DNA of 64,000 bases from Curvibacter lanceolatus ATCC 14669. GTDB lineage: Bacteria; Pseudomonadota; Gammaproteobacteria; Burkholderiales; Burkholderiaceae_C. Below the pieces are notes generated by a model. That model saw only the letters and a list, made by a program, of their open reading frames with translations, was not told the DNA's origin and did no database searches. A program made the position numbers and the translations under genes. The stretch lies in assembly GCF_000381265.1 (NCBI RefSeq), contig NZ_KB906263.1:1-64000 (forward strand), read 5' to 3'. This document shows positions 43,505-60,358 of this stretch, in pieces (the stretch's first letter is position 1; every line of letters begins with the position of its first letter).

Positions 43505-45114
43505 AGGCGCTCCAGGGCAGTCAGGATGCGGCCCACGTGGGCCTGCCATGTGTAGTGGGCCAGGACCTCCAGGCGGGCCCGGCGGGCCATTTCCTGGGCC
43601 CCTTCCGGATCGGCCAGGACACTCAACAAGCCCTCCGCCAGGCTCGCGACCGAACCAGGCTCGACCAGCCTGGCAGACACCCCATGGCTCAAGACCTCGC
43701 CGATCTGCCCCAGGCGCGACGCGACGATGGGCTTTTGCATGGCCATGTATTCAAAGACCTTGGTAGGTGAGCCAAAAAATGCGGAGCCATCGGGGTTGGG
43801 CACATGCGGGGCCACCAGCAGGTCACAGGCCGCCAGCCACTGAGGACCCTCCTTTTGCGGCACTGTCCCGGGGAAATGGACCGAGGCCTCGATCCCGAAC
43901 CGAACCGCCAAGTCGCGGCACTGTGCCTGGGTCTGCCCGTCGCCGATCATCAGCAGATGCAATGGCTTGCCGCACCCCGTGGAAGGCCAGGCCTCCAGCA
44001 CCCGTGCAAAGGCCTCCACCAGCACTTGGGCCCCATGCCATTTGCCAAAGGTCCCGATGAAACCGATCACACAGGCATTTTCCAACGCAAGGCGCCGCCT
44101 CAGGGGCATACCGTCCACCTGGGGCGAATAAACCTGCGGGTCCACGCCATTCGGGTTGACCAGGATGCGCTCCGGCGCCACGCCGATGGCCTCCAGTTCA
44201 GCCCGCAGCGGCGCGCTCACCACCACCACCAGATCGGCCTGCCGCAGGTTCAGCATTTCGATCTCCTGGGCCAGGGCTGGGTAGCGCAGACCGTTGCCCC
44301 AATGCTGGCCGATCCAGACTTCGGAGCCGTTGTACTCGAGCACCAGGGGCACCTTGAAATGTCGTGCTGCCCAGACCCCGGCATACTGGTGCAGACTGTA
44401 GCGCTGGTAGATCCAGGAGGGCTGCTCCTGGGGAGTCTGCCAGTGCCGGACCATCCACTCGTTCAAGGCCAGGGGAGGACACTCGCGAAAATCCCAATAC
44501 CGGTCCGGCAGTGCGAGGGGGCGGAAGGTCACCGCCCGATCCACCAGGGGATTGGCGGTCGGGGCCCAGAGAATCGGCGAACCGCCAAAGTCGGCCAGGT
44601 GGTTGACCACCCCGGCCACATGGGTGATTGAGCCCCCGGCCGGCGTCCCGAGCCAGAGATCGGTCTTCAGGTACCACGGCGCCTGACGCGCGGGCACCGC
44701 GGCCAGGGTCGCACGCGGGCGCGGCTGGGCGAGCAGGGTCACCTGCTGGCGGGCCCGCCGCAGGAGGCCAGGGCGGCCCCAAGCATCCAGCAGGCTGTGC
44801 CAGGCCTGGGCCAGCAACGCTGGCCAATGCACGGACAAGGTCTGGCCGTCCTGGGACTCGATCACGCAACGGCGACGGGCCAGACACCACAACAGGAGCA
44901 TCAGCAGAAAGCGCCGCGGCAGGTGCCGGGCACTGTAGGTCAGCAGCCGCACCTCGCGATAGGCCAGCAGCCGCCGCATCCAATGCCCCTGGTAGGCCAG
45001 CGCCACAAAGGCCTGCAGATCGAGCATCTCGGTCTGGGCATCGCCCGCAGGTGGCAGGCGGCCATCGAGGATCAACAGGCACGTGGGCCTGGCCGAGGTC
45101 AAGGCCGATGTCAT
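43495..45114 (-). CDS. Glycosyltransferase, GT4 with N-terminal extension
   Basis: A 539-residue transferase from ATG 45114, which overlaps the upstream gene's stop as ATGA. About 165 N-terminal residues of unknown role (rich in tryptophan, arginine and leucine) precede a GT4 region beginning WYLKTDLWLGTPAGGSITHV. Further motifs: EYNGSEVWIGQHWG, NPNGVDPQVYSP, GFIGTFGKWHGAQVLVEAF and FGSPTKVFEYMAMQKPIVAS. The same layout, including the extension and the YNGSE motif, is found in the GT half of the fusion at 55086, so the two are paralogues. Confidence 0.88.
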   Translation of the reverse strand: MTSALTSARPTCLLILDGRLPPAGDAQTEMLDLQAFVALAYQGHWMRRLLAYREVRLLTYSARHLPRRFLLMLLLWCLARRRCVIESQDGQTLSVHWPALLAQAWHSLLDAWGRPGLLRRARQQVTLLAQPRPRATLAAVPARQAPWYLKTDLWLGTPAGGSITHVAGVVNHLADFGGSPILWAPTANPLVDRAVTFRPLALPDRYWDFRECPPLALNEWMVRHWQTPQEQPSWIYQRYSLHQYAGVWAARHFKVPLVLEYNGSEVWIGQHWGNGLRYPALAQEIEMLNLRQADLVVVVSAPLRAELEAIGVAPERILVNPNGVDPQVYSPQVDGMPLRRRLALENACVIGFIGTFGKWHGAQVLVEAFARVLEAWPSTGCGKPLHLLMIGDGQTQAQCRDLAVRFGIEASVHFPGTVPQKEGPQWLAACDLLVAPHVPNPDGSAFFGSPTKVFEYMAMQKPIVASRLGQIGEVLSHGVSARLVEPGSVASLAEGLLSVLADPEGAQEMARRARLEVLAHYTWQAHVGRILTALERLCA

Positions 45115-47096
45115 CCCCACGCCCCCGACTCGATGAAGCGTTCATGCCAGGCGCACAGGTTGAAAATCACCCAGAGATAGTGGGCATGGTTGCGGTGCCC
45201 GGAACGGTGCCGGGCAAACAGGGTGCGCAGCACGGAGGCACGAAACCACCCGGCCCGGAACAGGCCGGAGCCCAGGATGCGGGCCTCGACCTCATGGCCC
45301 CAGTCGCCCCGAAGCCACTCGGCCATCGGTGCGCCAAAGCCACGCTTGGGCCGGTCGATGACCTCGTCAGGAATCAGCCCCCGCATCGCGTCCTTCAGCA
45401 CCGCCTTCCCCACGCCCCCTCGAGTCTTCCAGGCCGAAGGCATCTGCATGGCCAACTCGATCAACTCGTGGTCCAGGAAAGGAACCCGGGCCTCCAGGGC
45501 ATGGGCCATGGTCATCTTGTCCACACGCATGAGCAGCAGTTCAGGCAGACGGCATTTCAATTCGTAGTAGATCATCCGCCCGAGCAGGTCCTGGCCGGCG
45601 CCGGCCTGCTCCAGATGGGCGCGCCAGGGAGCGATCACCTGGTAGCTGTCATAGCCCTCGCCCGGGGCCATCAGCCCCGCCGGATAGGCCGCGGGCTCTG
45701 GCACGGGCAGGGCCTGACAGTCCATCAAGATCTGCTTCTGCGTCTCCCAGAACGTCGAGGCACCGCTCCAGAAGACCTCACGATCACCAGCAGCCCGAGC
45801 GGCAAAATCAGCCCCGACCGAGGCATCCCAACGCAGAGAGGCCCAGCGCCGGGCGCCCCCCGCCAGGGCGCTCTGCAACCAGGCCGGCAGCCCTGTGAAG
45901 GTCTTCCAATGGGTCTGGTGCACGCGCATGAAGTCCTGGTAGCCGGAGTAGCCGGCAAATGGCTCGTCCGCGCCCTCCCCCACCATGCAGACCTTGACAT
46001 GCCGGGCCGCCAGGCGAGACACATGGAACAGGGGAATGCAGACCCAGTCGGCCAGGGGTTCGTCCTGGCTGAAAAGGATCTCATCCCAGGACTCTCGCAG
46101 GTCCGACTCTCCGATGATCACCTCATGGTGTCGACTGCCGAAGTGGCGGGCCACCTCGCGGGCCTGGGCCAGTTCATTGAGGTGCTCGTGGTCCTTGAAC
46201 CCAACCGAAAACGATTCGACGGCCTGCTGGCCGGCACGGGTCATGGCCCCCAGGATGGACGAAGAGTCCACGCCGCCGGACAAAAAGACCCCCACCGGCA
46301 CGTCAGACACCAGGTGCTCGTTGACCGAGGACTGGAACCGCTCGGACAGGGCCCGGGTCACCTCCAGCCGCGCCGCCTCGTCATTTGCGGCATGGCACAC
46401 CCGCGGTAGCGGATCCCAATATGAGAAAGCCCGCTGGGCCGTGCCTGGCCCAAAGACCAGACCGTGCGCTGCCGGCAACTTGCTGATACCCTCAAACATC
46501 GTCAGCGGCGCCGGGGCCACCATGCCGCTCAGGTAGTGGTACATCGCCACCGGGTTCATGGTGCGGCGCACCCCGCCATGCGCCAGGATGGCCTTGATCT
46601 CCGAGGCGAACAGCAGCAGCCCGTGGCTGACCGTCCAATACAGGGGCTTGATACCCAGCCGATCTCGCAGCAGGAAGAGCTGCTGCTGCTGCGAATCCCA
46701 AAGGGCGATGGCGAACATGCCCTTGAGGCGCTGAAGCAATCCGGCTACACCCCATTGGGTGTAGCCGTGCACCAGCACCTCGGTGTCCGAATGATCGGTC
46801 TTGAACACGTGCCCGCAGCGCATCAGCTCAAGGCGCAACACGGCGTGGTTGTAGATCTCGCCGTTGAAGACCAATTGCACCGTTCCCGCCTGGTTGCCCA
46901 TCGGCTGGGCCGACGCCGGCACCGGGTCGATGATTGCCAGGCGTCGGTGTGCCAGGCCGATGCGACGGTCCGGTGCCAGCCAGAGGCCCTCGCCATCGGG
47001 CCCCCGATGGCGCATGGCCTCGCGCATGTCGAGCAAGCGCGCGGGGTCAACGGCCTGCCCGGCCCCCAGCGCCAACGCTCCGGCAAATCCACACAT
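45111..47096 (-). CDS. Asparagine synthase-like amidotransferase (second copy)
   Basis: A glutamine-dependent AsnB-family enzyme of 661 residues. Cys2 (MCGFAGALALG) is the glutaminase nucleophile, residues 1-210 the Ntn domain (RGPDGEGLW; VFNGEIYNHAVLR), and the synthetase half has the PPi loop SGGVDS at 273-278. Both halves seem complete. In O-antigen and capsule clusters such enzymes amidate uronic acids (WbpS type), which fits here. It follows its paralogue by 21 bases and overlaps the next gene by ATGA. Confidence 0.92.
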   Translation of the reverse strand: MCGFAGALALGAGQAVDPARLLDMREAMRHRGPDGEGLWLAPDRRIGLAHRRLAIIDPVPASAQPMGNQAGTVQLVFNGEIYNHAVLRLELMRCGHVFKTDHSDTEVLVHGYTQWGVAGLLQRLKGMFAIALWDSQQQQLFLLRDRLGIKPLYWTVSHGLLLFASEIKAILAHGGVRRTMNPVAMYHYLSGMVAPAPLTMFEGISKLPAAHGLVFGPGTAQRAFSYWDPLPRVCHAANDEAARLEVTRALSERFQSSVNEHLVSDVPVGVFLSGGVDSSSILGAMTRAGQQAVESFSVGFKDHEHLNELAQAREVARHFGSRHHEVIIGESDLRESWDEILFSQDEPLADWVCIPLFHVSRLAARHVKVCMVGEGADEPFAGYSGYQDFMRVHQTHWKTFTGLPAWLQSALAGGARRWASLRWDASVGADFAARAAGDREVFWSGASTFWETQKQILMDCQALPVPEPAAYPAGLMAPGEGYDSYQVIAPWRAHLEQAGAGQDLLGRMIYYELKCRLPELLLMRVDKMTMAHALEARVPFLDHELIELAMQMPSAWKTRGGVGKAVLKDAMRGLIPDEVIDRPKRGFGAPMAEWLRGDWGHEVEARILGSGLFRAGWFRASVLRTLFARHRSGHRNHAHYLWVIFNLCAWHERFIESGAWG

Positions 47097-47117
47097 CAAT
47101 GCACCTCTGCCCGAACG

Positions 47118-49127
47118 TCAAAAACAATCGGCATGGCCTTCAATCCACGATTCGTACCACAGCAAGGCATTGAGGACCGTCCACAGATGAAAGCTGTAGC
47201 CCCCGCCCGAACCCGTCTGCTGCTGCAACAGGTCCTTGAGGTAGCCGGCGTCGAAGAACCCCTCACGCAGCAAGCGTGATCGGTCCAGCGCGGCATGGCA
47301 GCGACGGGCAAAGGCTGGATCTTTGAACCAGGACTCCATCGGCGCACCAAAGCCCTGCTTCTTGCGGTAGATCATGTCGTGGTCGAGGTAAGGCTCCGCC
47401 GCCCGCTTCAGCAGGTACTTGCCTTCTCCGTTGCGCAACTTATAGGACAGGGGCAGGCGCATGGCGAACTCGACCAGATCGTGATCCAGGAACGGCACCC
47501 GGGCCTCGATCGAATGCGCCATGGTCAGCTTGTCCACCCGCATCAGCAGGTGCTCGGGCAGGCGCAGCTTGAGCTCCATGTAGGTGATCTTCTGCAAAAC
47601 CTCGGGTTGCGCCAGTTGGCCAGAAAGGGGCCCCAGGTAGTGATTGACCACGGCATGGCTGTCCAGTTGGGCAAAGGCCGGAGGCAGCAGACCCGGTACG
47701 GGGCAATCGACCGTGTCCGAGAACGGCCCCAGCAGCGGTGTCAGCTGCTCGCGCATGCCACCCCACCAACAGACCGCTCCACCCCAGAACAGCTCCTGCC
47801 CAGCCATCGCCCGCTTTTGGATCTCAAGGTCCTCGCGCCCCAGGTTCGGCAGCCCCGACTTGCCCCTGGACAACAGGCGGCGCCACCAGGGCAATGACTG
47901 GCCCTGGCGCAAGGGGGCATACAGACTCTCATGCTTCTGGCGGTAGTGCTCAACCCACCAATAGCCCAGCAGGTTCTCATCGGCACCCTCGCCGACCTGG
48001 ACCACGGTCGTGCCGCTTTCCTTGACCAGCTTGGACAGGAAATACAGCGGTATGCAGACGTTGTCGGCAATCGGCTCATCCTGGAGCTGCACCAGCAAGG
48101 GAAGAAAGTCCTGAGCATCCTGACGGTTGATCAGGGTCTCGTGGTGCTCGGTCTTGTAGCGCTGCGCGATGCGGCGGGCGAACTCGAACTCGTTGGACTT
48201 GTCTTCGCCCTCGTAGCCGATCGTGAAGGTGGAAACCGGACGGTCCATCATTTCACTCATCAAGGCCACGTTCATGCTTGAGTCGACGCCCCCGGAGAGC
48301 AGCACACCAAAGGGCACATCCGCCACCATGCGCCGCTCGATGGACTTGCGCAGCAGTCCCGTCAGTTGCTCAACCGCTTCCGGCTCGCTCAACTGGGCCT
48401 CCGTCAGCGTCTTCGACGCGGAGGGCACGCAGTCCCACCAGACACGGGCTGAGGCCTGGCCTTGGGCATCGATGCTCATCACATGTCCAGCCGGCAGCTT
48501 GAACACGCCCTTGAACAAGGTCATGGGCGCTGGCGTCACGATGAAGGTCAGGTAGTGCCAGAAGGCCGTGCGGTCCATCTGGGGCGACAGCTCAGGGTGG
48601 GCAAACAGAGCCCGGATTTCGGAGGCAAAGAGCCACTCCCCCGATGAGGTGCGCGAGAAATACAGCGGCTTGACCCCCAGGCGGTCGCGGGCCAGGTGCA
48701 TGACCGGCCGGCCGGGAACCCGCTCGTCATAGACGGCGAACGCGAACATGCCGTAGAAACGGTGCAGACAGTCCAGCCCCCATTCCTCGTAGGCATGCAG
48801 CAGCACCTCGGTGTCTGAATGGTCGGTCACCCACTGGTACTTGCCGGTGGCGACCAGGGCACGGCGCAATTCGGCATGGTTGTAGATCTCGCCATTGAAA
48901 ACCAGATGCACCGTTCCGGCGGCATTCGACATCGGCTGCGAAGCAGAGGTCGAGAGATCGATGATGGACAGGCGCCTGTGGACCAGGGCGCACCGCCCAT
49001 CCACCGCACGCCAGAGGCTTCCACCATCTGGCCCGCGATGCACCATGCGATCCCTCATGCGGGCCAGAACCCGATCCTCACAAACAGGCCGTCCCTGAGG
49101 GCGGTATGCCCCTGCTATGCCGCACAT
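47118..49127 (-). CDS. Asparagine synthase-like amidotransferase (first copy)
   Basis: An AsnB-family enzyme of 669 residues from ATG 49127, preceded by GGGAG. Cys2 (MCGIAGAYRPQ) begins the glutaminase domain (RGPDGGSLWR; FNGEIYNHAELRR), and the ATP-dependent amide-forming half has SGGVDS at 278-283 and ARVPFLDHDLVEFAMRL. It is clearly related to the second copy but diverged, so the two probably modify different acid groups. The 42-base gap to the upstream gene is the largest inside the operon. Confidence 0.92.
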   Translation of the reverse strand: MCGIAGAYRPQGRPVCEDRVLARMRDRMVHRGPDGGSLWRAVDGRCALVHRRLSIIDLSTSASQPMSNAAGTVHLVFNGEIYNHAELRRALVATGKYQWVTDHSDTEVLLHAYEEWGLDCLHRFYGMFAFAVYDERVPGRPVMHLARDRLGVKPLYFSRTSSGEWLFASEIRALFAHPELSPQMDRTAFWHYLTFIVTPAPMTLFKGVFKLPAGHVMSIDAQGQASARVWWDCVPSASKTLTEAQLSEPEAVEQLTGLLRKSIERRMVADVPFGVLLSGGVDSSMNVALMSEMMDRPVSTFTIGYEGEDKSNEFEFARRIAQRYKTEHHETLINRQDAQDFLPLLVQLQDEPIADNVCIPLYFLSKLVKESGTTVVQVGEGADENLLGYWWVEHYRQKHESLYAPLRQGQSLPWWRRLLSRGKSGLPNLGREDLEIQKRAMAGQELFWGGAVCWWGGMREQLTPLLGPFSDTVDCPVPGLLPPAFAQLDSHAVVNHYLGPLSGQLAQPEVLQKITYMELKLRLPEHLLMRVDKLTMAHSIEARVPFLDHDLVEFAMRLPLSYKLRNGEGKYLLKRAAEPYLDHDMIYRKKQGFGAPMESWFKDPAFARRCHAALDRSRLLREGFFDAGYLKDLLQQQTGSGGGYSFHLWTVLNALLWYESWIEGHADCF

Positions 49128-49169: not shown

Positions 49170-52100
49170 TCACCCCAACTTCACATGAGACGGGACATCC
49201 GCCCATCGCGATTGATGGACCGCGACCACGTTGGGGCTGCGTGGCGTCTCGCACGGCGAGGCCAATCGACCTGTGATGGGATCAAAGTCATGAATCCGAT
49301 AGCCCAACGAATCTAGCAAGCGAACGATGCCAGCGTAGGCCTCTGGGCGCTGTTCGCTGGACGTCTCAAAAAGAACGTGAGGCCTCCATCGTTGAAGGCA
49401 TTCCTGCGCGCCTTCGAGCACAGCCAACTCAGAGCCCTCGACATCGACTTTGAGGACGTCAAATCGCTTCACTTGCTCATCGCCCATAAACTCATCCAGA
49501 CACTCGATCCGGATCGACTCCGAGGGCCCCTGCTCATCCGCAATCACAACCCCTCGCCAAACCACCTCAACGATCTCATCGCGCTTCACCAGCCGTCGAA
49601 GACAAAGGTGATCCCCAGGCCCACCGCGCAGAAGCAGTTGACCATCCCAATGCATCGTCAGACCCGCACTGAATGAGATATCCCAATCTGGAAAAATAGT
49701 CGCCAAGATCTCACACGGCGCTGACTCGCCCGCCATGCTGGACGGCCCAGCCGGTTGGATGGCATAGACAAATCCAAGCTCGCTATACAAATAGATTTCC
49801 GCCCAACCCTCAGCCTCGAACGACAGTTTTCGGCACCCTTCCCAGGCAGGCGTCCAGACAGAGGGCTGTACGCCTGCTGTGGTCCGAATGACCGGCAATC
49901 TCAATATGCCGTTGAGCGAGTTGTGCCCCGCTAATTCATCACTCGCAAGATAAAGTTTGCCCGGACCGCGTCGGCTGCCGAGAGCTGCAGCCTCCACATG
50001 AACGTGGTGAAGTGCATTGATATCAATGTTGCGCAACAACGTTCGACGCTCGCGCCCACTCGGCTCAAAGGCATAGACACGACCCGTAGGACCGACTTTA
50101 TTGGCCAACAGGAGCGTAAAAAGGCCAATATTAGCTCCGGCATCGACCACCACCCCGCCAGGAGGGCTCAAGGCCTCCAAGACAGTCATTTCATTTGGCT
50201 CAAGACTGCCCCCAACATAAAGGACACGGGCCAGATCGCCTTTGGTGGGCAAAACCAGATCCAGACCATTGACCCAAGGCACTTGAAGATCGACAGGTTT
50301 GGGTAAGCCTCGAAGGTCCTCAAGTATCGCCTCCCGCTCGCGGGCCAGACGGCCGCCTCGGCGCAGATCCAGGCCGAAATCCCAGGCGGGACAAAACGTG
50401 ATCGGCTTGAAATCGGCCAACTGCTGGGCCTGGGTGAGTCTGATCGCCAACTCAGGCGCAACACCTGACTCGTCCGGGTCGCGTGCCGAAGACAGGTTCA
50501 TCTGGGCCGACCAACTGGCCTGCCCCACCACCACCGTGCCGACGGACAGCGGTGAATCGTCGATGATTTCAAACTCCAGCGATCTGGACCGACAGGCATA
50601 GACGCCGGGATTGATCGAGAAGTACTGCTCCTGGAACCGGTCGTAATAACCAGGCTCGGCGATCAACACCGTCACCGTATAGGTGCCCGCACTGAACGGG
50701 ACGGCGTCCAACTTGAAGTCGATGTCCACCAGAGGCCGGGCGCGACCCTGAAGGCGCAGATCCCGACAAAGGTAACGGGCAACATCCTGAGACCCATCGC
50801 GGTGCAGGGCCACGACGACGTGCGGACACTCATCCAGCATCTCGTCATGGACGCGGCAGCGGATCAAGAGCTGGGCCGGGTACCCATGACGAAGGTAATA
50901 GGTGTCCTGACCATGGGTATCAACAAAATAAACATCCTCAATGGCAATCCGTTGATTACCAATGTGGCGTGCCAACCAACGGGCTGAATCATCGGAGCCT
51001 TGTGCCATCCCGATCTGGAAATCGCGCCATTGCCCCGCACTGTCCCCCAGGGTCCGACTCAGACGCTGATGCCCTTCTTGATCGAACACCCGCAGCGCCA
51101 AGTGAGCGCCATCGTGGGATTGAACGCGACCCGAGAAAATGAGGCGCTCCCAATCATCAGCCACCAGTTCAGGCAGGCGCACCACCGCGCCCACCTTCAG
51201 GAAAGGTGACCCATATGGGTTCACCCAACGGGCTGGCTGCTCGTCCAACAGGAATGATTCACCCCAATTACTCTCGCCCGCCACGAGACTGGCAGGTCCA
51301 GTGTCCAGGAAGGCCGCATCGCCCATCAGGGGAATGTCGATGCTCCATGCATCTGGCAGACTCACTCGCAGCGCGGACAGGCCAACCGGTTGGGACAGCG
51401 GCGCCAGGGAACAGAACTCCAACAACAGGCGTCGCCCCTCGGACTGCGACGGCGTGCTGGCAGGTGCCACAGCCGCCTCGCTGTGGACCAGGCGCTTGGT
51501 GCGCAACCGCTTTTCCTCCTGGGCCCGGATGGAGGTTTCATAGGCCTTGATGACATCCTTGGACGATCCATCGCACACCAACTGGCCCTTGTCGATCCAG
51601 ATCATCCGATCGCACAGTTTGGCGGCCGAATAGACATCGTGCGAGACCAGCAACAGGCTGCTTCCCCGGGTGCTGCACAACGCTCGGATGCGCTCAAAGC
51701 TCTTGCTGGCGAAGTAGGCATCGCCCACCCCCAGGATTTCATCCAGCACCAGTAGCTCGGGCTCGATCACGGTCGAGGTGGCAAACATCAGGCGGGCCAT
51801 CATGCCGGTGGAATAGGTCTTGATGGGTTGGTCGATGTACTCCTCCAGCTCGGCGAAGTCGACGATGTCCGTGAGGATCCGGTTGGCTTGCGCACCCGAG
51901 ATGCCCTGGTGGGCCAGGTAGGCCAAGGCATTCTCGCGCCCGGTGAAGTCCTGGTGGAATCCCGAACCGATCTGCAGCAGGGCATGCACGCCCTGGCGCA
52001 CGTCCAAATGGCCCGACGTGGGCTCGATGACGCCTGTGATCAGCTTGAGCAAGGTGCTCTTGCCCGCCCCGTTGCGCCCGATGAAGGCCACTTTTTCGCC

Positions 52101-52259
52101 CCGGGAGATCGACAACGTGACCCCACTCAGAGCCGTGTGTTCGGTGTAGGCATCCCGGACTTTCAACAACCCGAACATATCGAGAAACCGATAGTGCGGC
52201 TTCTTGTACAGCCGGTACACCTTGCTGACATTGCTCAGCTCGATGATGCGCTCACTCAT
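49170..52259 (-). CDS. Wzt-like ABC ATPase fused to an FkbM methyltransferase
   Basis: A 1029-residue multidomain protein from ATG 52259 (MSERIIELSNVSKVY). Residues 1-245: ABC ATPase of polysaccharide export with Walker A GRNGAGKST (61-69), signature YSTGMMARL, Walker B LLVLDEILG and SHD. Residues 275-450: beta-rich domain of unknown role. Residues 455-567: Wzt C-terminal carbohydrate-binding-like region (YPAQLLIRCRVHDEML; FSAGTYTVTVLIAEPGYYD). Residues 640-1020: FkbM SAM methyltransferase with VVVDAGANIG (703-712), FEPSG (731-735) and DVLKVDVEGSE (934-944), split by an unusual insert at about 785-915. Wzt homologues are normally 400-450 residues. Methylation and export of the glycan would be on one chain. 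Confidence 0.9.
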   Translation of the reverse strand: MSERIIELSNVSKVYRLYKKPHYRFLDMFGLLKVRDAYTEHTALSGVTLSISRGEKVAFIGRNGAGKSTLLKLITGVIEPTSGHLDVRQGVHALLQIGSGFHQDFTGRENALAYLAHQGISGAQANRILTDIVDFAELEEYIDQPIKTYSTGMMARLMFATSTVIEPELLVLDEILGVGDAYFASKSFERIRALCSTRGSSLLLVSHDVYSAAKLCDRMIWIDKGQLVCDGSSKDVIKAYETSIRAQEEKRLRTKRLVHSEAAVAPASTPSQSEGRRLLLEFCSLAPLSQPVGLSALRVSLPDAWSIDIPLMGDAAFLDTGPASLVAGESNWGESFLLDEQPARWVNPYGSPFLKVGAVVRLPELVADDWERLIFSGRVQSHDGAHLALRVFDQEGHQRLSRTLGDSAGQWRDFQIGMAQGSDDSARWLARHIGNQRIAIEDVYFVDTHGQDTYYLRHGYPAQLLIRCRVHDEMLDECPHVVVALHRDGSQDVARYLCRDLRLQGRARPLVDIDFKLDAVPFSAGTYTVTVLIAEPGYYDRFQEQYFSINPGVYACRSRSLEFEIIDDSPLSVGTVVVGQASWSAQMNLSSARDPDESGVAPELAIRLTQAQQLADFKPITFCPAWDFGLDLRRGGRLAREREAILEDLRGLPKPVDLQVPWVNGLDLVLPTKGDLARVLYVGGSLEPNEMTVLEALSPPGGVVVDAGANIGLFTLLLANKVGPTGRVYAFEPSGRERRTLLRNIDINALHHVHVEAAALGSRRGPGKLYLASDELAGHNSLNGILRLPVIRTTAGVQPSVWTPAWEGCRKLSFEAEGWAEIYLYSELGFVYAIQPAGPSSMAGESAPCEILATIFPDWDISFSAGLTMHWDGQLLLRGGPGDHLCLRRLVKRDEIVEVVWRGVVIADEQGPSESIRIECLDEFMGDEQVKRFDVLKVDVEGSELAVLEGAQECLQRWRPHVLFETSSEQRPEAYAGIVRLLDSLGYRIHDFDPITGRLASPCETPRSPNVVAVHQSRWADVPSHVKLG

Positions 52260-53070
52260 AGTCCACCAACACGCCCTTGAATCGGTGGAAAAACAGCGAA
52301 CCCAGCAGGAAAACGCCCGAGGACAACAACACAAACATCAGTAATTTGAAGCCATTGAAAGGATAGTTCACCAGCAGACTGTATCGGAACGCTTCCAGCA
52401 TATGACTGACCGGATTGAGATCCACCAGGATCGCAAAGGCACCCGGCACCATGTCCCGGGTGAAACCGATCGGCGAAACAAACATGATCAGCAGGATGAG
52501 CAGATTCACCACATTGCCGATGTCAGGCAATGCCACAGCCAGCGCCGACAGGATCAGGACCAGACCGACCAGCAGCAGCACCTGAAAGAAGAGCACCAGC
52601 GGCAGCCACAGCAGCTTGAGGGAAGCGTAGCCGCCCCACAGCACCAGGATCAGCAGCACCGCCATTCCCACCATCTGGGTGGCCAGGCTGGCGAAGACGG
52701 CTCGGATCGGTACCAACTCGATCGGCAGCATCACGTTCTTGATGAGATGCATGTTCTGCCTCAGGCTGACGGTCCCGGCAGACAGGCTTTCCGACAAACC
52801 AATGAAGGGTATCAAGCCACAAAACACATAGATCGCGTACCCCAGCCCCTCATAGCCGGGCAGTTGGGTCTTGAAGACCACGGCATAGATGAACAGGTAG
52901 ATGCTCAGCAACAGCAGTGGGTACAGCAAGAGCCACAAGCGGCCAAAGGCAGAGCCGGAATGCCTCTTTTCCAGCTCCACCTTGGTGACGGCAAACAGCA
53001 CCCGCCGATTTTTCAGCACCAGCCGGAGCAGATGCGTGGGGTGCCAACGCATCGATTTGGAAGAAATCAT
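52252..53070 (-). CDS. ABC-2 type polysaccharide export permease (Wzm type)
   Basis: A 272-residue permease from ATG 53070, which overlaps the upstream stop as ATGA. Six membrane helices match the Wzm/KpsM family (RLWLLLYPLLLLSIYLFIY; PLVLFFQVLLLVGLVLILS; PDIGNVVNLLILLIMFVSP). It makes the membrane channel for lipid-linked polysaccharide and pairs with the ATPase encoded next, whose start lies inside its last codons (8-base overlap, 52252-52259). Confidence 0.92.
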   Translation of the reverse strand: MISSKSMRWHPTHLLRLVLKNRRVLFAVTKVELEKRHSGSAFGRLWLLLYPLLLLSIYLFIYAVVFKTQLPGYEGLGYAIYVFCGLIPFIGLSESLSAGTVSLRQNMHLIKNVMLPIELVPIRAVFASLATQMVGMAVLLILVLWGGYASLKLLWLPLVLFFQVLLLVGLVLILSALAVALPDIGNVVNLLILLIMFVSPIGFTRDMVPGAFAILVDLNPVSHMLEAFRYSLLVNYPFNGFKLLMFVLLSSGVFLLGSLFFHRFKGVLVDYE

Positions 53071-55082
53071 GACAAGCATTCCGCGCGAGGCGAGGACTGA
53101 CAGAGACGGAAGGCCCAGCACGAGCCTCCCACCATCTGCATCTTCGTCCGCAGGTTCAAGGCCAGGCAGGGTTGTGCCCGGCCATAAGAGGGAGAGTACT
53201 GGCTGGCCGTCAGCTCGGCCACCAATTCCGGGCCCGACCATTGCAGTTCAAAGTGCTGGCCGCCAGCCCACAGCCTCAATATCGCCCCACCGGGATCCAA
53301 CTGGGCCGAGACACCCGGCGCCAGATGGAAGTGCCAACTGAGCTCATGTCCGCCCTCTGATCGAAGTTCGTCTTCGACATCGAGTTGGCCCGTCTGCCGA
53401 TCATGCACGAAACGGCGCCGATGGCGAAGCGGCACCGGCAGGCGCGCATAGCCCTCATGACAGCCCTCGTAGACCATGCGGGACGCAGAGGCCTCGAAGG
53501 CCAGGGTCTGCGGCAACGCTTTCTCGAACAATCGGAACAACCACTCAGGGTTCATTTCGTTTTGTTCGATGCCATCCACCATGACGGTGTTATGAAAGGC
53601 GGTACCCCGAAAACGGTTGCGCGCCTCCGGGTCAGAGGTGTAGACATAGCTCCCGGGGTCAACGATCAACGGTTGCCCCGCGATGTGCAGCTCAAAGGAC
53701 AACTGGTCGTTGTGCTTGTGGTTGCCAAAACCTTCGGTCCCAACGATGGCGTTGCTGACCAACAAGTAGTGACCGCCAGCCCGCGAGACGGCATGTCCGG
53801 CGTTCGGGTAGAACGTGGCATGGGCTGGCCAAACACCGAGAGGCACCGAGACCTCTGTGCCCGTCACTTCGTCGAAACCCCACCAGGCCGCCTCCCAGGC
53901 CCCCACCGGACCGGCCAACCCACGCCAATCCGGTCGTCCAAGGGCGAGCGCCGCAGGCGCCAGCAAATGCCGTGCGTCCTGCGGTTGCCAGTTGCCATAC
54001 CCGGACAGGATGTGCAAACGGCCATCATCGGCATCCCCCACCTGAGGCATGAGCCCATCAGGGCGCATCACACCCACCAGGTAGTCGATCATCTTCTCCA
54101 GACTGGTACGAAAACCTTCCGACAAGGGTCGCCGGATCCAGTGACTCACGTGCCAGGCGCCGAGAAACAGTTCTGTGACCAGGCGGTGATAGGGAATGGA
54201 GCTTTCGAAGTCGGCACCGTCCGGCAGGATCTGGACCCGCATCTCGCGCTCCAACATGGCGACACACCAATCCAGCCATTGCTGCCCCTGAGGTCGATCA
54301 ACAAAGACCGCAGCCACATACAGCAGCCCCACCACATTGCTCAGGAAGTGATTGCTGGTGACCTCGTACTTGTCTTCCAGGTTGCCTCGGATGAAATGGC
54401 CCAGCGCCAGCAGGTGATGGCAGGCCCTGGACCAGAAATCCGGATCCGGCCCCTCCCAGGCCTGCAGAATCTGCAAGGTCACGGCCCAATTGGCAGCACG
54501 CAGTGCCACGTCCATGGTGCAGACCCAGTTGACACCGACCCCCACGGGGTTGGCGGCCACAAAATCGTCGAGTTGGTGCGCGATCTCGCACGCGTAGCGC
54601 TCATCGCCCGTCAGCGCCCAGGCCTGGGCCAGCAGGGGCCAATGCTGGCAGCGAGCCAGCTCCCAGGGAAGCTTGATGTCTGCCAGGCCAGGCCTCATGG
54701 TGGCCATGTCCCAGCTCTTGTGGGGAAATCCTGTGGGGAAGCGCAGTTGGCGCCCCGGGTCCAGGTGCCAGTCGATCCAGCGATAGCCATCGGGGTGCGG
54801 CGGCCTCGACAAGTCCCCGGGCTCGAAATCGTCAACCCCCAGCAAGCTGAACCGATGGCTCAGCACTTGCTCGGCAGCGGCCACCGTGCGGTCGATCTCG
54901 GCAGGCCACTCGTTGCGCAGCCGCTCCATGCGGGCCGGGTTCGGCCCCATGGGCAGGCGCGCAGGGGAGCGCAGCGCGGCCACATCCTCCGGCGCCAGCG
55001 TCCAGGCCATGTCCACGGACTGGGGCACCGTGATGCTGCTGGCCCTGGACCGGGTCAGGAATCGCCTCAGAAAGGAGAACAT
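53067..55082 (-). CDS. Heparinase II/III family protein (second copy)
   Basis: A 671-residue heparinase II/III-type protein. The pattern IKLPWELARCQHWPLLAQAW, NPVGVGVNWVCTMDVALRAAN, YHRLVTELFLGAWH, GDADDGRLHIL, HKHNDQLSFELHIAGQ and DPGSYVYTSDPEARNRFRGT matches the first copy at many points, with about the same order, but the two are well diverged. No clear signal peptide is present. It lies three bases after the GT-methyltransferase fusion and overlaps the permease gene by four bases. Confidence 0.9.
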   Translation of the reverse strand: MFSFLRRFLTRSRASSITVPQSVDMAWTLAPEDVAALRSPARLPMGPNPARMERLRNEWPAEIDRTVAAAEQVLSHRFSLLGVDDFEPGDLSRPPHPDGYRWIDWHLDPGRQLRFPTGFPHKSWDMATMRPGLADIKLPWELARCQHWPLLAQAWALTGDERYACEIAHQLDDFVAANPVGVGVNWVCTMDVALRAANWAVTLQILQAWEGPDPDFWSRACHHLLALGHFIRGNLEDKYEVTSNHFLSNVVGLLYVAAVFVDRPQGQQWLDWCVAMLEREMRVQILPDGADFESSIPYHRLVTELFLGAWHVSHWIRRPLSEGFRTSLEKMIDYLVGVMRPDGLMPQVGDADDGRLHILSGYGNWQPQDARHLLAPAALALGRPDWRGLAGPVGAWEAAWWGFDEVTGTEVSVPLGVWPAHATFYPNAGHAVSRAGGHYLLVSNAIVGTEGFGNHKHNDQLSFELHIAGQPLIVDPGSYVYTSDPEARNRFRGTAFHNTVMVDGIEQNEMNPEWLFRLFEKALPQTLAFEASASRMVYEGCHEGYARLPVPLRHRRRFVHDRQTGQLDVEDELRSEGGHELSWHFHLAPGVSAQLDPGGAILRLWAGGQHFELQWSGPELVAELTASQYSPSYGRAQPCLALNLRTKMQMVGGSCWAFRLCQSSPRAECLS

Positions 55083-55085
55083 GCT

Positions 55086-57728
55086 TCAGGCCCGTGGCTT
55101 GTAAGCCTTGATGACAAGATTCCATCCCATCCAGCGCCCAAGGGTCTCCAGGGGGACTCGCTTGAGGATCGGCGGGACCTCCGCCGGGGTGAGCTGGCAC
55201 TGGGTGATCTCGATGTCGGTGAAGGCCGAGAACATCTGCCTCAAACGGGCCGGTGTGTACACCTTGACCAGGGGCTTGGCGTCGTTCTCGCTGATCTCGA
55301 CCGCTTCCGACATGATGGCTCCGATCGACTTCTCGTAGATCTGGGCCTGGCCGAGGCCGATTTCCAGCACCAAATTGCGCCAGTAATGGAGTGAGTTTTC
55401 GGCGTAGACCATGATGATCGCCTTGCCACCGGGCTTCAGCACCCGGTAGATCTCATCCACCACCTGCTGGGTATTGGGCGTGTGATGGATCACGCCATTG
55501 GAATAGACCAAGTCGAAGTGATTGTCCTGAAAGGGCAAATTCTCCGCATCGTGGTGCACAAAAGTGCCCTGCAATCCCCTGAGGAGAAAGTTCTCCCGGG
55601 CCAACGCCAGATGCCCGGCCGACAGGTCGACATCGGTCATGCGAGCGCCATGCCGTGCGAACTGGGCATGGTCCGTTCCCATGCCGGCACCGATCTCCAA
55701 CACCTCTTCACCCGCGTGCTGGTCAAACTCCATCAAGCGGGGCATCCAGGGCCCATATTGTTCATAGCGGTAGCGCTCGACCTCCAGGAACCACTCCAGC
55801 GTGTGCTTCGGAACGTCCTTGACGTAGTGGGAGCCACAAGGGTCATGGTCCCACTGGTTCTGCACCTCGTCCTTGTAGCGATCACCCGTGACCAGCAAAG
55901 GCGCAGCCTGCACGGGCGCCTGGGGCACCAGCACGGATGCGGGAACATGGCCGGCCGCGAAGCCAAGCAGCCGTTGGACATGGTGACGCCAGGCATAGTA
56001 CGACTCCGCAGCCTGCCGGGCGTTGCGCCCCAGGACATCCGAAACCTCGGGGTGCTTGCACAGATAGACCACGGCTTCAACAAACTGTCGCAGATCCCCT
56101 GGCGCACACAGGATCGCCCGTTGTTTGTCCAGCATGTTGATCGCCGGCAGGTCCTCGGCCCGGACCGAAGGATTCAAAACCTCGCCCATCTGCTCAAGGT
56201 CGCTCGCAACGATACCGACCCCCATGCCCATGTATTCGAACAGCTTGGTCGGGGACCCGAAGAACTTGCCATCAACCATGTGCGCGTTGTGCGGCGCAAT
56301 GCAGATATCGCAGGCCTTGAGAAGGCGTGCGCCCTCCTGCTGAGGCACGCGCCCCACGCAATGAACCACATCCCACAGGCCATTTTCGTGGATGGCCTGA
56401 TCGACCAGGGCCTTTTTATGACCATCGCCGATGAGCAGCACACGGGCGTTCTTGCACCGCTTGATGATCATCGGCAATGCACTGGCCAGCGTGTCGATGC
56501 CATGCCAGCCGCCGAAGGTGCCCGTGAACCCGATCACGCGGTCATCCGGACCGAAGCCCAGTTCAGCACGCAGCGCTGTGCGCTCGTCGGGTGAAGCCGG
56601 GCAATAGCTGTCGAGATCCACGCCATTCGGATTGACCAGAATCTTGTCGGCGGCAATGCCTCGGGCCACCAGGTCGGATTTGACGGGCTCGGAGATCACG
56701 GAGATCACCGTGGCCTGCTTGAATGCCACAGACTCGATGCGCAGGAACTCCTCTTCGTGCTCGAAGCGGGTCGTTCCGAAGCTTTTCTGGATGGATATCT
56801 CGGAGCCGTTGTACTCGAGCAGGTAGGGAATCCCGAGCTCGGCCGCCAGGCGCGCACCGACATAGTTCCCGAGCACGGCGCGCTCGTACAGATAGGCCGG
56901 CTGGAGCGCCTCCAAAGCGGTCTTGAGTTGGACGTAGAAATGCTCGTTGGCCGCCAGCAGCGACTGCTCCGACGACTCCGCATAGGGCGGGCCAACAATG
57001 ACTTGGTGCAGCCCCATCTCGTCCAACATCGAGAAATGGTTTGCCATGAAGCACACCAGCCCATCGGAAGCCCGCGCCAGCTCATGTGCCACATGGCAGG
57101 TATGGCCATAGCTGCCGCCCGACGTGATGCGACCCCAGTAATCCGTGCGCAGGTAGACGCCACGCCCGGCCACCCGCCAGGCTCCGCTGTCCTGGACCAG
57201 GGCGGGCTGCAGGCTGGTGGGCGCGGACGATGCCAGCTTGTCCAGGATCTGGAGCCGCTCCACCGGCGTGCTGGGCGCCACCACGGGGGCCGCCGCCGCT
57301 TCTGCGGCAGGTGCGGACAGCCCTGTCGCCGCTCGCACCCAACGCGCCACACCCAATGTGTTCAAGATCCGCACGCCCTGGTTGACCAGCCAAACCATCC
57401 AGCACAGGCGCCAGTAGCTGCGCAGGCGCTCGGCATCAGCCACCTCGACCACCTGCTCACGCGGCCAGTAAAAAAACACCCGCTTGCCCGCCAGCAAGGC
57501 CTTGCGGGCCAGCTTCAGGTGTGCGGGCCAGGGCCAGCCGTTGACCAGTTCGATGATCAGCCCTGCACACCCCGGGGCGGCCAGCACGGCGGCAGGCGAA
57601 ACGGGCTCGAGCGCAGCACGCCGGATCACGACCGGATGGCGTTCCGTCATTCCGGCCAGCGCCGGCTCGACCAGGGTGCAGCCCTGGTCGAGTTGCGGGT
57701 TCAGGTACTGGTATTCAGCCTTGCTCAT
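55086..57728 (-). CDS. GT4 glycosyltransferase fused to a SAM methyltransferase
   Basis: An 880-residue fusion. About 170 N-terminal residues of unknown role are followed by a GT4 region (YLRTDYWGRITSGGSYGH; EYNGSEISIQKSFG; NPNGVDLDSYCP; GFTGTFGGWHGIDTLASAL; FGSPTKLFEYMGMGVGIVAS), then from about residue 640 a class I methyltransferase with motif I VLEIGAGMGTDHAQF near 681 and NGVIHHTPNTQQVVDEIYRV. The methyl group may go on the sugar just added or on the lipid-linked chain. The ATG overlaps the upstream stop (ATGA). Confidence 0.9.
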   Translation of the reverse strand: MSKAEYQYLNPQLDQGCTLVEPALAGMTERHPVVIRRAALEPVSPAAVLAAPGCAGLIIELVNGWPWPAHLKLARKALLAGKRVFFYWPREQVVEVADAERLRSYWRLCWMVWLVNQGVRILNTLGVARWVRAATGLSAPAAEAAAAPVVAPSTPVERLQILDKLASSAPTSLQPALVQDSGAWRVAGRGVYLRTDYWGRITSGGSYGHTCHVAHELARASDGLVCFMANHFSMLDEMGLHQVIVGPPYAESSEQSLLAANEHFYVQLKTALEALQPAYLYERAVLGNYVGARLAAELGIPYLLEYNGSEISIQKSFGTTRFEHEEEFLRIESVAFKQATVISVISEPVKSDLVARGIAADKILVNPNGVDLDSYCPASPDERTALRAELGFGPDDRVIGFTGTFGGWHGIDTLASALPMIIKRCKNARVLLIGDGHKKALVDQAIHENGLWDVVHCVGRVPQQEGARLLKACDICIAPHNAHMVDGKFFGSPTKLFEYMGMGVGIVASDLEQMGEVLNPSVRAEDLPAINMLDKQRAILCAPGDLRQFVEAVVYLCKHPEVSDVLGRNARQAAESYYAWRHHVQRLLGFAAGHVPASVLVPQAPVQAAPLLVTGDRYKDEVQNQWDHDPCGSHYVKDVPKHTLEWFLEVERYRYEQYGPWMPRLMEFDQHAGEEVLEIGAGMGTDHAQFARHGARMTDVDLSAGHLALARENFLLRGLQGTFVHHDAENLPFQDNHFDLVYSNGVIHHTPNTQQVVDEIYRVLKPGGKAIIMVYAENSLHYWRNLVLEIGLGQAQIYEKSIGAIMSEAVEISENDAKPLVKVYTPARLRQMFSAFTDIEITQCQLTPAEVPPILKRVPLETLGRWMGWNLVIKAYKPRA

Positions 57729-60358
57729 GCGTCTGTCCGTCCGAAAATCAAATCTTCCACATGCAAGGCCACGGCCGTGGTCTCGACGATCTCATCGAAG
57801 GCGATCACGGGATCAGTGCCCTGAGCGACCGCCTCGCCAAACAGACGCATTTCTTCCGCATGGCCCTTGTCCGCCTGGTCTGACTTCCAGAGCACCTCGC
57901 CGTCGGAACAGCGTGTGAGGCTCTTGAAATCGTCAATGAGGTAGGCCTCGCCATCGCAAAACACCTCAATGCGCTCCTTGGGCAGCCCCTTCTTGGGCCC
58001 CAGCGCGGTGTAGACCAGGTTGCCGACGCTGCCGTCCTCATACGCCAGAGTGGCGACAAAGTTGTCGGATCGCGCATAGGGCAATGCGCCGGGATTGATC
58101 GACGACGCGGAAATGCGGCTGACCGGAGCGCCAGCCAGGCTCCGGAACACGTCGTACATATGACAGGCCTCACCGATATTGCGACCGGCACCATCCGCCG
58201 TCTGGATCCAATGATCCAAGGGGATGTAACCTCCATTGAGGCGGTAGTTGATGATCAGCGGCGAACGACGCCCCTGAAGAATCTGGCGCAGCTGGAGCAA
58301 GGCGGGCGAAAAGCGCCGATTGAAACCCACCATGAGCTGTGGCGGCGCCTCCAGCGCACGGTAGGCCTGGACCAACTGATCCAGCTCTTCCCAGTGCACC
58401 GCCAGGGGCTTCTCCACGAACACATGCTTGCCGGCCTGCAAGCCGGCAAGGGTCTGGGCCGCGTGCTCGTTATGACGGGTCGCAATGACCAGCAGGTTGA
58501 TAGCCTCATCCTCCAGCACCGGCGCCAGATCGGTCGCAAAGATGTCCAGCCGGCGCTCGCGGACAAAGTTGCCTCCACGCACCGTGTCGCGCGACACCAC
58601 ACCACGCAAAAAGAAGTGCCTGGGGTGACGCTCCATCATGGGGACCAGCATGGACTGGCCGTACGCGCCAGCCCCCACCAGCACCGCCTGCGCAGGCCCC
58701 TGCTGGGGCTTGCGGTGGCCGCGCAATGCGACTCGGCTCGAATCGAGCGGCTGCGGGGGTGGCATGGCCGGATCCGGGTAGGCCAGCAAGACGCCCAGAG
58801 GGGCTGCTGCACTCCGGGCCAGGCGGTCATACAGGGCGGGGGCCTGGTCCAAAGGCACCACCTCATCGATCAATGAACCGATTTTCAGACGCCCCTGCGC
58901 AGCCAGGTCGAGGTAGCTCTGCATGTTCCGGTTCAAAGTCCAGCGAACATAGGCAAAAGGGTAATCCTGACCGCTTTCCTCATAGCTGGGGTCGTATCGC
59001 CCCGGGCCATAGGAGGTGCTCATCAACAGGTCAATCTCTTTGCGATAGAACTGGCTGCGTTGCACGTTCAGGCCGACATCACCCACGATGACCACGGCAC
59101 CCCGACGACGCGTGATGTCCATGGCCAGGTTGATGACGGCATCCGACTTGGTGGCGGCGACCATCAAGGTCTTGTCCACCCCCCGGGCCCCCGTCAGGTC
59201 TCGGACCAGCGCCGCCAGGGCCTCGGGCGAGCCGGCACCTTGCTGCATCCCCGCGTCCAGAGCCCGTTGGAGCCGCAACGGGTCAAGGTCCATGCCGATG
59301 ACGGTACAGCCTGATGCCAACAACAATTGCACGGTGATCTGACCCAAGAGGCCCAGACCGATCACGCAGACCGTCTCGCCAAGAGCCGCCTCCGCCCGAC
59401 GAACCCCCTGCAACGCGATCGTGCCCACCGTGGTCGTCGCCGCAATCTGCAGGTCCAGGCCGGCTGGCACACGACACACCAGATTGCGGGGCACTGCGAC
59501 GTAGTCGGCATGGTTGGCCTTGCCAGCCCCGGCGCAGGCCACCCAATCACCCGGCGCAAGATCCGTGACGCCAGCCCCCGTGGCCAGGACCTCGCCTGCT
59601 GCCGAATAACCCAGATTCCATCCAGCGGCATCCATCTCGTTCTGGGGCGTGCCGTGAGGATCCGGCGCCAACAAGGTGGTGTTCACCTGGCTCAGCTCAA
59701 GCTGGGTGATCCCCCCTTGTGCATTGGCCAGCACCAGACGGACCTCGGTCTCACCCTGGGGATCAAAAATAAAGCGATCGTCGAGTTCCCCCGCCGCCAA
59801 GACAGACAGACCAAGCCACCGCTGCCCCCCGGCATCCAGCATTCCCAAGGACATCACCCCGGGGGACAGATGCCCCTTCAGATCGACCGCCACCATGTGC
59901 CCGGGGCTGACCCGGATCACGGCCGAGCGGGCCTGGTAATGGAAATCCGAAGCATCCGTCGTCAACGAAAGGCCAGTGGGCGCCTTGCCGGCAAAGGATG
60001 TGGCATTGTCCTGCGACCAACTGAGGGCCCCGAGAACGTGGTCTGCCGCGGGCGGCCTGGGGCGCCGAGGCACCCACTTCACCACCTGCATCTGGGCAAT
60101 CTGCTTGACGCGCTTGACGGCCAACCCTGGATTCGCGATTGCAGCCTTCAGGTAATGGTGTGCCAAAGAGGACGCGGCCACGACCTTGTCGATCCCGCGT
60201 TCCCCCTCCACCGGCGGTGAGGGGCGCAGCGTGGCGACCTCGGTGCCCACGCTGACCATGGAATAGCAAACCCGGACCAGGACCTCCCCGGGCCGAGCGA
60301 CTGGCGCAGGCATGCGGGCGACTTTGACCCCGGCGTTGTTGAGTAGGAGTTGTCGCAT
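57725..60358 (-). CDS. Bi-domain oxidoreductase (MDR plus Gfo/Idh/MocA), with insert
   Basis: An 877-residue protein joining a medium-chain dehydrogenase to a Gfo/Idh/MocA sugar oxidoreductase (from about residue 555). The MDR part has VGTEVATLRP, GYSAAGEVLATG, ACAGAGKANHADYV and VIGLGLLGQITVQLLLA. The Gfo part has VLVGAGAYGQSM, ATRHNEHAAQTLAGLQAGKH and EKPLAVHWEELD. Between residues about 100 and 245 the MDR is interrupted by a beta-rich segment absent from the paralogue (60361), with SPGVMSLGMLDAGGQRWLGL in it. The pair is thought to dehydrogenate sugar intermediates. Overlaps the next gene by ATGA. Confidence 0.9.
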   Translation of the reverse strand: MRQLLLNNAGVKVARMPAPVARPGEVLVRVCYSMVSVGTEVATLRPSPPVEGERGIDKVVAASSLAHHYLKAAIANPGLAVKRVKQIAQMQVVKWVPRRPRPPAADHVLGALSWSQDNATSFAGKAPTGLSLTTDASDFHYQARSAVIRVSPGHMVAVDLKGHLSPGVMSLGMLDAGGQRWLGLSVLAAGELDDRFIFDPQGETEVRLVLANAQGGITQLELSQVNTTLLAPDPHGTPQNEMDAAGWNLGYSAAGEVLATGAGVTDLAPGDWVACAGAGKANHADYVAVPRNLVCRVPAGLDLQIAATTTVGTIALQGVRRAEAALGETVCVIGLGLLGQITVQLLLASGCTVIGMDLDPLRLQRALDAGMQQGAGSPEALAALVRDLTGARGVDKTLMVAATKSDAVINLAMDITRRRGAVVIVGDVGLNVQRSQFYRKEIDLLMSTSYGPGRYDPSYEESGQDYPFAYVRWTLNRNMQSYLDLAAQGRLKIGSLIDEVVPLDQAPALYDRLARSAAAPLGVLLAYPDPAMPPPQPLDSSRVALRGHRKPQQGPAQAVLVGAGAYGQSMLVPMMERHPRHFFLRGVVSRDTVRGGNFVRERRLDIFATDLAPVLEDEAINLLVIATRHNEHAAQTLAGLQAGKHVFVEKPLAVHWEELDQLVQAYRALEAPPQLMVGFNRRFSPALLQLRQILQGRRSPLIINYRLNGGYIPLDHWIQTADGAGRNIGEACHMYDVFRSLAGAPVSRISASSINPGALPYARSDNFVATLAYEDGSVGNLVYTALGPKKGLPKERIEVFCDGEAYLIDDFKSLTRCSDGEVLWKSDQADKGHAEEMRLFGEAVAQGTDPVIAFDEIVETTAVALHVEDLIFGRTDA

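Follow-up and report, generated by a model that had tools for sequence, protein, structure and literature searches.

In a 64,000-nucleotide stretch of Curvibacter lanceolatus ATCC 14669 (positions 1 to 64,000 of contig NZ_KB906263.1, hereafter the window), a single gene at 49170..52259 on the reverse strand encodes a Wzt-type transporter ATPase and an FkbM-type methyltransferase on one polypeptide chain. We consider it fairly probable that this fusion is the ATPase of a Wzm/Wzt system exporting a lipid-linked surface polysaccharide and that it carries a built-in chain-terminating methyltransferase. A terminator resembling WbdD would then have been replaced by one tethered to the exporter, with methylation at the chain end inferred from the position of the enzyme in the operon. 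The fusion is a variant within the known Wzm/Wzt terminator-export systems, and the methyltransferase-Wzt layout itself is new in the material that we searched.

The gene is a single open frame of 1029 residues with zero internal stops, and Pfam and NCBIfam confirmed the proposal of an earlier note on this DNA that one chain holds a Wzt ATPase, a Wzt-like region and an FkbM domain. That note had named a stop or a frameshift in the chain as fatal to its proposal; stops are absent, and codon-position composition gave no sign of a change of frame. G+C content at third codon positions (GC3) lay between 0.50 and 0.90 across all 60-codon blocks and, because it ranked first or second among the codon positions along the whole gene, a frame change is not indicated. 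The signal was weakest at codons 721-780, where GC3 was 0.50 versus 0.48 at second positions (GC2). GC3 fell from 0.84 in the ATPase part to about 0.6 in the FkbM part, a drop that would fit separate origins of the two halves. The 5' end of the gene overlaps the 3' end of wzm by 8 bp.

Residues 1-250 (51510..52259, reverse strand, as are all features of the window given below) form a Wzt/TagH-type ATP-binding cassette (ABC) ATPase, assigned from the Pfam ABC_tran domain (residues 44-174, E value 1.1e-20), its motifs and matches in the PDB. The sequence has Walker A (61-69), a YSTGM signature (148-157), Walker B (168-175) and an H-loop (203-208). NCBIfam models for TagH and galactan export also matched, with scores under their own cut-offs. 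The nearest PDB chains were 8dku, the best match, and 6amx (E about 1e-50), both in entries named ABC transporter; we take 8dku to be the O-antigen exporter of Aquifex aeolicus. The gene thus shows both traits by which we recognised a Wzt: a Wzt/TagH-type ATPase in which the usual motifs are present, and a Wzm-type ABC-2 permease encoded alongside.

Behind the ATPase lies an accessory domain of 175 residues (256-430; 50970..51494) with zero Pfam matches, followed by a diverged Wzt_C domain (residues 431-583; 50511..50969). Pfam placed Wzt_C at 432-575 of the whole chain with E 1.6e-7 and 31.8 bits, narrowly above the cut-off of 30.4 bits. When residues 425-600 were scanned alone, the match improved to E 3.8e-9 and 37.1 bits, which is still weak. 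The accessory domain was found in few Wzt proteins: those of the cyanobacterium Symploca SIO2C1 (locus L011), of locus L332 and of a Pseudomonas frederiksbergensis plasmid (L301). The Wzt of locus L333 (genome G896) matches that of Symploca over residues 4-403 at 39% identity. The domain list of the earlier note was right in its ABC, Wzt_C and FkbM parts and had missed both this domain and an insertion within FkbM.

The methyltransferase spans residues 613-1029 (49173..50423) and is whole, including the N-terminal part seen in stand-alone relatives. Pfam matched Methyltransf_21/FkbM at 918-989 (E 3.2e-19), covering the second half of the profile only, and NCBIfam fkbM_fam matched two stretches, the best of them (703-770) corresponding to the first half. 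A loss of the residues that bind S-adenosylmethionine (SAM), which the earlier note, together with action on an unrelated molecule, had also named as refuting, was not found: the motifs DAGANIG (706), AFEPSG (730) and LKVDVEGSE (936) are intact, and all 12 invariant columns of a 13-row FkbM alignment are kept. A structure model of chain residues 591-1029 placed the methyltransferase core (model residues 101-170 and 321-439) at a predicted local distance difference test (pLDDT) score of 83-97; the first 100 model residues (chain 591-690) were uncertain, at 29-64. Nearly all of the 50 Foldseek matches listed for this model are SAM-dependent methyltransferases, class I enzymes among them, and the entry 2py6, named FkbM, ranked third (E 5e-5) with a template-modelling score (TM-score) of only 0.30. 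The TM-scores are low because a large share of the model is uncertain.

Alignment with relatives revealed an insertion of about 121 residues within the FkbM fold (residues ~783-905; 49545..49913), flanked by a conserved NSL motif and by the strand that precedes LKVDVEGSE. It is absent from all 120 FkbM relatives in which both halves could be measured (60 of 60 cellular loci and 60 of 60 viral contigs, near-duplicates included; 9 cellular and 23 viral further matches were unmeasurable), which are shorter at this site by a median of 121 and 122 residues, respectively. A contiguous FkbM domain, a common trait of the relatives and no formal criterion, is accordingly not what the fusion has. The insertion matched nothing in Pfam or PHROG and, among 161 loci compared, only the window's own; in ten-residue blocks it was modelled at pLDDT 31-65, with one block at 73. 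Its placement between the NSL motif and the LKxDVEG strand suggests that it probably shapes the choice of acceptor or docks on the transporter. As a separate matter, we considered whether one mobile sugar-binding domain is shared by residues 256-430, the FkbM insertion, an insertion in the oxidoreductase encoded at 57725-60358 and an extra domain of a cyanobacterial Wzt (L160), and rejected this: nine of ten profile comparisons gave less than 1% probability, and the tenth, between the accessory domains of the window and Symploca, gave 47% (E 1.9e-4). Nor does the insertion derive recognisably from the separate methyltransferase of L332 and Symploca.

The junction (residues 584-612; 50424..50510) falls near the ends of unfused Wzt relatives. 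Trp 583 is conserved in the three such proteins compared, which end 14 residues further on in L332, about 30 in Symploca and a few in the Pseudomonas plasmid, and the nearest stand-alone FkbM relative aligns from residue 620 of the fusion onward. Judged by these end points, the fusion resembles two whole proteins connected through about 30 linker residues.

An otherwise similar operon with an unfused Wzt indicates what the methyltransferase may have replaced. With a profile that covers the accessory domain and Wzt_C, built from three proteins, we searched 243 cyanobacterial genomes and 239 genomes of the window's class. The former yielded one further strong relative (locus L332 of genome G1299, E 3e-107); the latter gave only two weak matches besides the window. 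The genes of L332 come in the order seen in the window, at 45-72% identity: oxidoreductase (58%), family 4 glycosyltransferase (GT4) with methyltransferase (51%), heparinase-like protein (52%), Wzm (50%), Wzt (45%), a separate protein of 730 residues and AsnB (72%). Its Wzt has 605 residues, is unfused and aligns over 604 columns. The protein in the slot between wzt and asnB carries a Methyltransf_11 domain at 457-545 and a coiled-coil-like segment at 652-721 according to a crude composition test. In Symploca, whose Wzt is 46% identical over 577 columns (window residues 1-565), the order is Wzt, a small methyltransferase, a methyltransferase with coiled coil, and AsnB; the slot methyltransferase, here too a protein of its own that combines Methyltransf_11 with a coiled-coil-like tail, is 46% identical to the 730-residue protein of L332. 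The P. frederiksbergensis plasmid Wzt aligns at 31% over window residues 1-580. A methyltransferase lies directly 3' of wzt in all four long-armed Wzt relatives (Symploca, L332, L333 and the P. frederiksbergensis plasmid).

The genome of the window holds no orthologue of the 730-residue protein; what comes closest is a stretch of about 100 residues at 31% identity (E 2.4e-5) within the GT4-methyltransferase gene, which itself has an orthologue in L332. By this comparison, the window has an FkbM enzyme fused to Wzt where its relatives hold a separate methyltransferase with a tail that is coiled-coil-like. Since profile comparison of FkbM with the separate protein of L332 found no similarity, the sequences point to replacement by an unrelated methyltransferase rather than to fusion of a former neighbour. 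Transfer between distant bacteria is suggested by the likeness of AsnB to cyanobacterial AsnB (69-72% identity), against only 45-46% for the neighbouring Wzt, and by the finding that none of the candidates scored in 299 genomes of the same family is a relative of residues 256-1029 as a whole.

Some features of these relatives stand on their own. In L333 the gene directly after wzt is a methyltransferase-GT4 fusion, in the order opposite to the GT4-methyltransferase of the window. On the P. frederiksbergensis plasmid, the gene after the separate methyltransferase (L301:10641-11846) encodes a protein that is coiled-coil-like at 199-387, and terminator and ruler may there be carried on two chains. 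Among ten open reading frames (ORFs) near the Symploca wzt (L142/L143) that we compared with the window's genes, a Wzm-like protein was absent.

Characterised systems offer a logic for the fused enzyme. PMC3482155 describes how WbdD of Escherichia coli O9a modifies the chain end and so halts growth, how without WbdD the chain is made and not exported, such that end modification licenses export, and how the WbdD of O8 is a methyltransferase only. The E. coli O8/O9a systems resemble the window in having a Wzt ATPase with a C-terminal carbohydrate-binding domain (CBD) and, in an O8-type record, a methyltransferase 3' of wzt; they differ in that WbdD is a separate protein (with a C-terminal coiled coil in O9a), whereas the window's enzyme is of FkbM type, has an insertion and is fused to Wzt. 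In A. aeolicus, the ABC ATPase and the CBD also share one chain. According to PMC9445017, the cap there is methylated (3-O-methyl-mannose/rhamnose), 3-O-methyl-mannose is bound by the Wzt domain but mannose is not, and the capped chain is located between the CBD and the nucleotide-binding domain (NBD). The solved A. aeolicus chain has 404 residues, which leaves no room for an accessory domain or a methyltransferase. PMC11231755 states that one transporter consists of two Wzm and two Wzt, and that the terminators of Klebsiella pneumoniae O4 and O7 bear a coiled-coil ruler. The O7 protein ORF6 is a terminator methyltransferase(-kinase) fused to another part of the machine, as is proposed for the fusion in the window, but its partner is a set of glycosyltransferase polymerase modules and not the exporter (PMC11231755).

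By analogy with E. coli O9a/O8 and A. aeolicus, the FkbM domain would have taken over the job of the separate slot methyltransferase and would methylate completed chains at their non-reducing end. The methylated end would then be taken up by the Wzt_C pocket of the transporter that carries the enzyme, and export would start. With two Wzt per transporter, two methyltransferase domains would sit beside the cytosolic entrance. To our knowledge, terminator and exporter are always separate proteins in the known systems. The earlier suggestion that capping and export share one polypeptide has gained from the slot comparison with L332; methylation of the chain end and binding of the product stay predictions, as do the substrate, the end specificity, the hand-over and the role of the insertion, drawn from an anatomy, an operon and a replacement that were read from sequence and comparison. 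A more elaborate proposal, that the exporter makes its own export signal through an ATPase-borne methyltransferase that finishes the chain and hands the product to the binding domain, with length set by the transporter and the insertion reading the chain or docking, is tentative, and we would sooner expect it to fail than to hold in full.

We asked how widespread the layout is. The window holds the sole methyltransferase fusion found in a set of 172 Wzt_C matches (E <= 0.001, some of them under the Pfam cut-off, two from the window's own genome) from 493 genomes, 299 of them Pseudomonadota and 194 cyanobacterial. As candidates for further methyltransferase fusions, all 17 other Wzt_C frames of at least 580 residues were scanned with Pfam, and a methyltransferase domain was found in none of the 17. 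Three of the 17 are fusions to other enzymes (radical SAM/SPASM once, sulfotransferase twice) and another two (L011 of Symploca, and L160) show nothing beyond a longer arm. The remaining 12 hold ABC and Wzt_C only, besides AAA families on the same P-loop, with Pfam-negative extra length 5' of the ATPase; one of them (L155) gave no match to Wzt_C at E 0.001. The profile search of the 243 cyanobacterial genomes added three sulfotransferase fusions.

Enzymes fused C-terminally to Wzt recur, five of them sulfotransferases and one a radical SAM enzyme. The Wzt-sulfotransferase proteins (689-690 residues) are cyanobacterial (L158, L159, L334, L335 and L336, in genomes G784, G724, G880, G1359 and G1366), and the Wzt-SPASM/radical SAM protein (about 854 residues; L146:2083-4644, genome G373) is from Pseudomonadota, its enzyme likewise C-terminal. 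All share with the window's protein the arrangement of ABC_tran, Wzt_C and a C-terminal enzyme on one chain, but their chemistry differs.

Relatives of the whole chain were absent from the 299 same-family genomes and from the matches listed from 398 same-phylum and 292 cyanobacterial genomes; the best two or three candidates per genome were scored, so that a rare miss is possible, and the sample sets overlap. Plasmid and phage records held no whole-length relative of residues 256-1029, viral contigs scanned with residues 1-600 gave none, and a peptide-pattern scan of genome contigs gave two relatives, one of them in the ATPase only. In the open-licence literature, judged by titles and opening abstracts, we did not recognise a Wzt-methyltransferase fusion. 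The remark in the earlier note that it knew of no characterised protein with exactly this layout stands within the genomes searched, which are only a sample.

A methyltransferase beside wzt is common in the material that we examined. We hand-picked 13 plasmid records from 40 listed ATPase matches (at least 5000 records match), 12 of which were annotated, and an annotated methyltransferase lies directly 3' of wzt in seven: P. frederiksbergensis, Azospirillum (FkbM), Shinella zoogloeoides, Pseudomonas aeruginosa, Serratia (with an O8-type wzt), Shinella sumterensis and Peteryoungia (FkbM). An FkbM profile built from 14 relatives, which may miss other FkbM types, found FkbM in two of 40 Wzt_C regions (the best 40 of 85 matches, at most 16 kb each) versus none of 19 controls (one just 2.2 kb long); both lie directly 3' of wzt on the same strand. 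At one locus (L244:6686-9385, genome G585) an FkbM protein directly follows wzt and its C-terminal part looks coiled-coil-like by eye; it may be a terminator of FkbM type that carries a ruler of its own.

Several observations weigh against a chain-terminating exporter ATPase, beginning with the fusion being a single instance in the material searched. Five of the 12 plasmid records have no annotated methyltransferase 3' of wzt (two from Azospirillum, and those from E. coli, where an unnamed protein lies there, Gloeothece and Citrobacter). FkbM specifically is uncommon as a partner and, with two of 40 regions, cannot be called the usual one; FkbM families act on many different substrates. Binding of a cap by Wzt_C is only putative, because the domain lies barely above the Pfam cut-off and its region had zero sequence matches to solved structures even at E 10. 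The structure model of residues 241-600 was unusable (pLDDT 46, from two input sequences), and Foldseek with it found nothing at E 0.001. The crude composition test flagged a coiled coil in none of the 14 operon proteins; it does flag the proteins in the slot of L332 and of Symploca as well as one from P. frederiksbergensis, yet three more proteins encoded in these clusters are flagged too, and some of what it flags is unlikely to be a ruler. Length control, if there is any, would therefore work by a different mechanism, through a protein outside the 14 or through a ruler that the test missed. The operon, finally, contains a second methyltransferase domain, in the GT4-methyltransferase (55086-57728), that could make the cap.

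This second domain, the breadth of the FkbM family and the lack, by the crude test, of the coiled-coil ruler of known terminators would all agree with an FkbM domain that methylates the glycan internally or on an accessory sugar while another enzyme, such as the GT4-methyltransferase, makes the cap. We regard this as unlikely: FkbM sits directly behind Wzt_C, in the slot of the separate methyltransferase, and the GT4-methyltransferase does not supply the lost function, since L332 has both its 51% orthologue and the separate methyltransferase. The junction raises another doubt, for an in-frame ATG at residue 587 overlaps the TGA of another frame (ATGA), the type of 4-bp overlap that couples wzt to a methyltransferase gene in several relatives. 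As residue 587 is also close to the end point of unfused Wzt proteins and the fusion is carried by one assembly only, wzt and fkbM might be two overlapping genes that a sequencing or assembly slip has made to look single. An in-frame ATG followed by A may, however, occur by chance, and a good ribosome site is absent before codon 587, though several starts in the operon are likewise weak. We judge a slip there improbable because the Wzt frame is preserved at least as far as the conserved Trp 583 and codons 583-587 contain no base run longer than three (C); four consecutive G occur upstream of the Trp, at 578-579. That the FkbM part is decaying or non-catalytic, a scaffold only, might be read from the insertion splitting it next to the active-site motifs and from its lower GC3, but with the invariant columns retained and the methyltransferase core modelled at high confidence we give this very little credence.

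The genes between 39046 and 63953 share one strand and either overlap or are spaced by no more than 42 bp. Listed by rising coordinate, opposite to the direction of transcription, they encode a GT4, a GumK-like glycosyltransferase, a heparinase-like protein, a GT4, two AsnB proteins, the Wzt-FkbM fusion and Wzm; beyond Wzm follow a heparinase-like protein, the GT4-methyltransferase, two two-domain oxidoreductases and a nucleotide-sugar dehydrogenase, so named from 32% similarity to annotated wbpA. The AsnB-type amidotransferase of the gene after the fusion (47118..49127) is 69% identical to its counterpart in Symploca and 72% to that in L332, and a second one (45111..47099) was assigned with Pfam and NCBIfam. 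The Wzm permease (52252..53070) has the ABC2_membrane domain; its start at 53070 was inferred from the overlap with the preceding gene and the onset of similarity, the mechanical ORF reaching 53241. Pfam also identified the heparinase II/III-like protein (53067..55082), the GT4 glycosyltransferase with its C-terminal class I methyltransferase (55086..57728), a domain fusion that L332 conserves, and a zinc-dehydrogenase/Gfo-Idh-MocA two-domain oxidoreductase (57725..60358); its paralogue, also a two-domain oxidoreductase, lies at 60361..62514. The former contains about 150 extra Pfam-negative residues that are absent from the paralogue, and its L332 orthologue aligns along nearly the full length. 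The gene families suggest that the product would be a polysaccharide containing uronic acid and possibly amidated. A second, ordinary wzt with a permease-like gene lies on the same contig at 88200-89423, about 36 kb away and outside the window.

The fusion means that finishing and export of a surface sugar chain may be physically coupled in one protein. Together with the otherwise similar unfused operon, the fusion forms a matched pair for studying how a capped chain reaches its exporter, the need for tethering, the reading of the cap and the setting of chain length without a ruler. The recurring fusions of Wzt with a methyltransferase, sulfotransferases and a radical SAM enzyme suggest that end-modifying enzymes repeatedly join the exporter.

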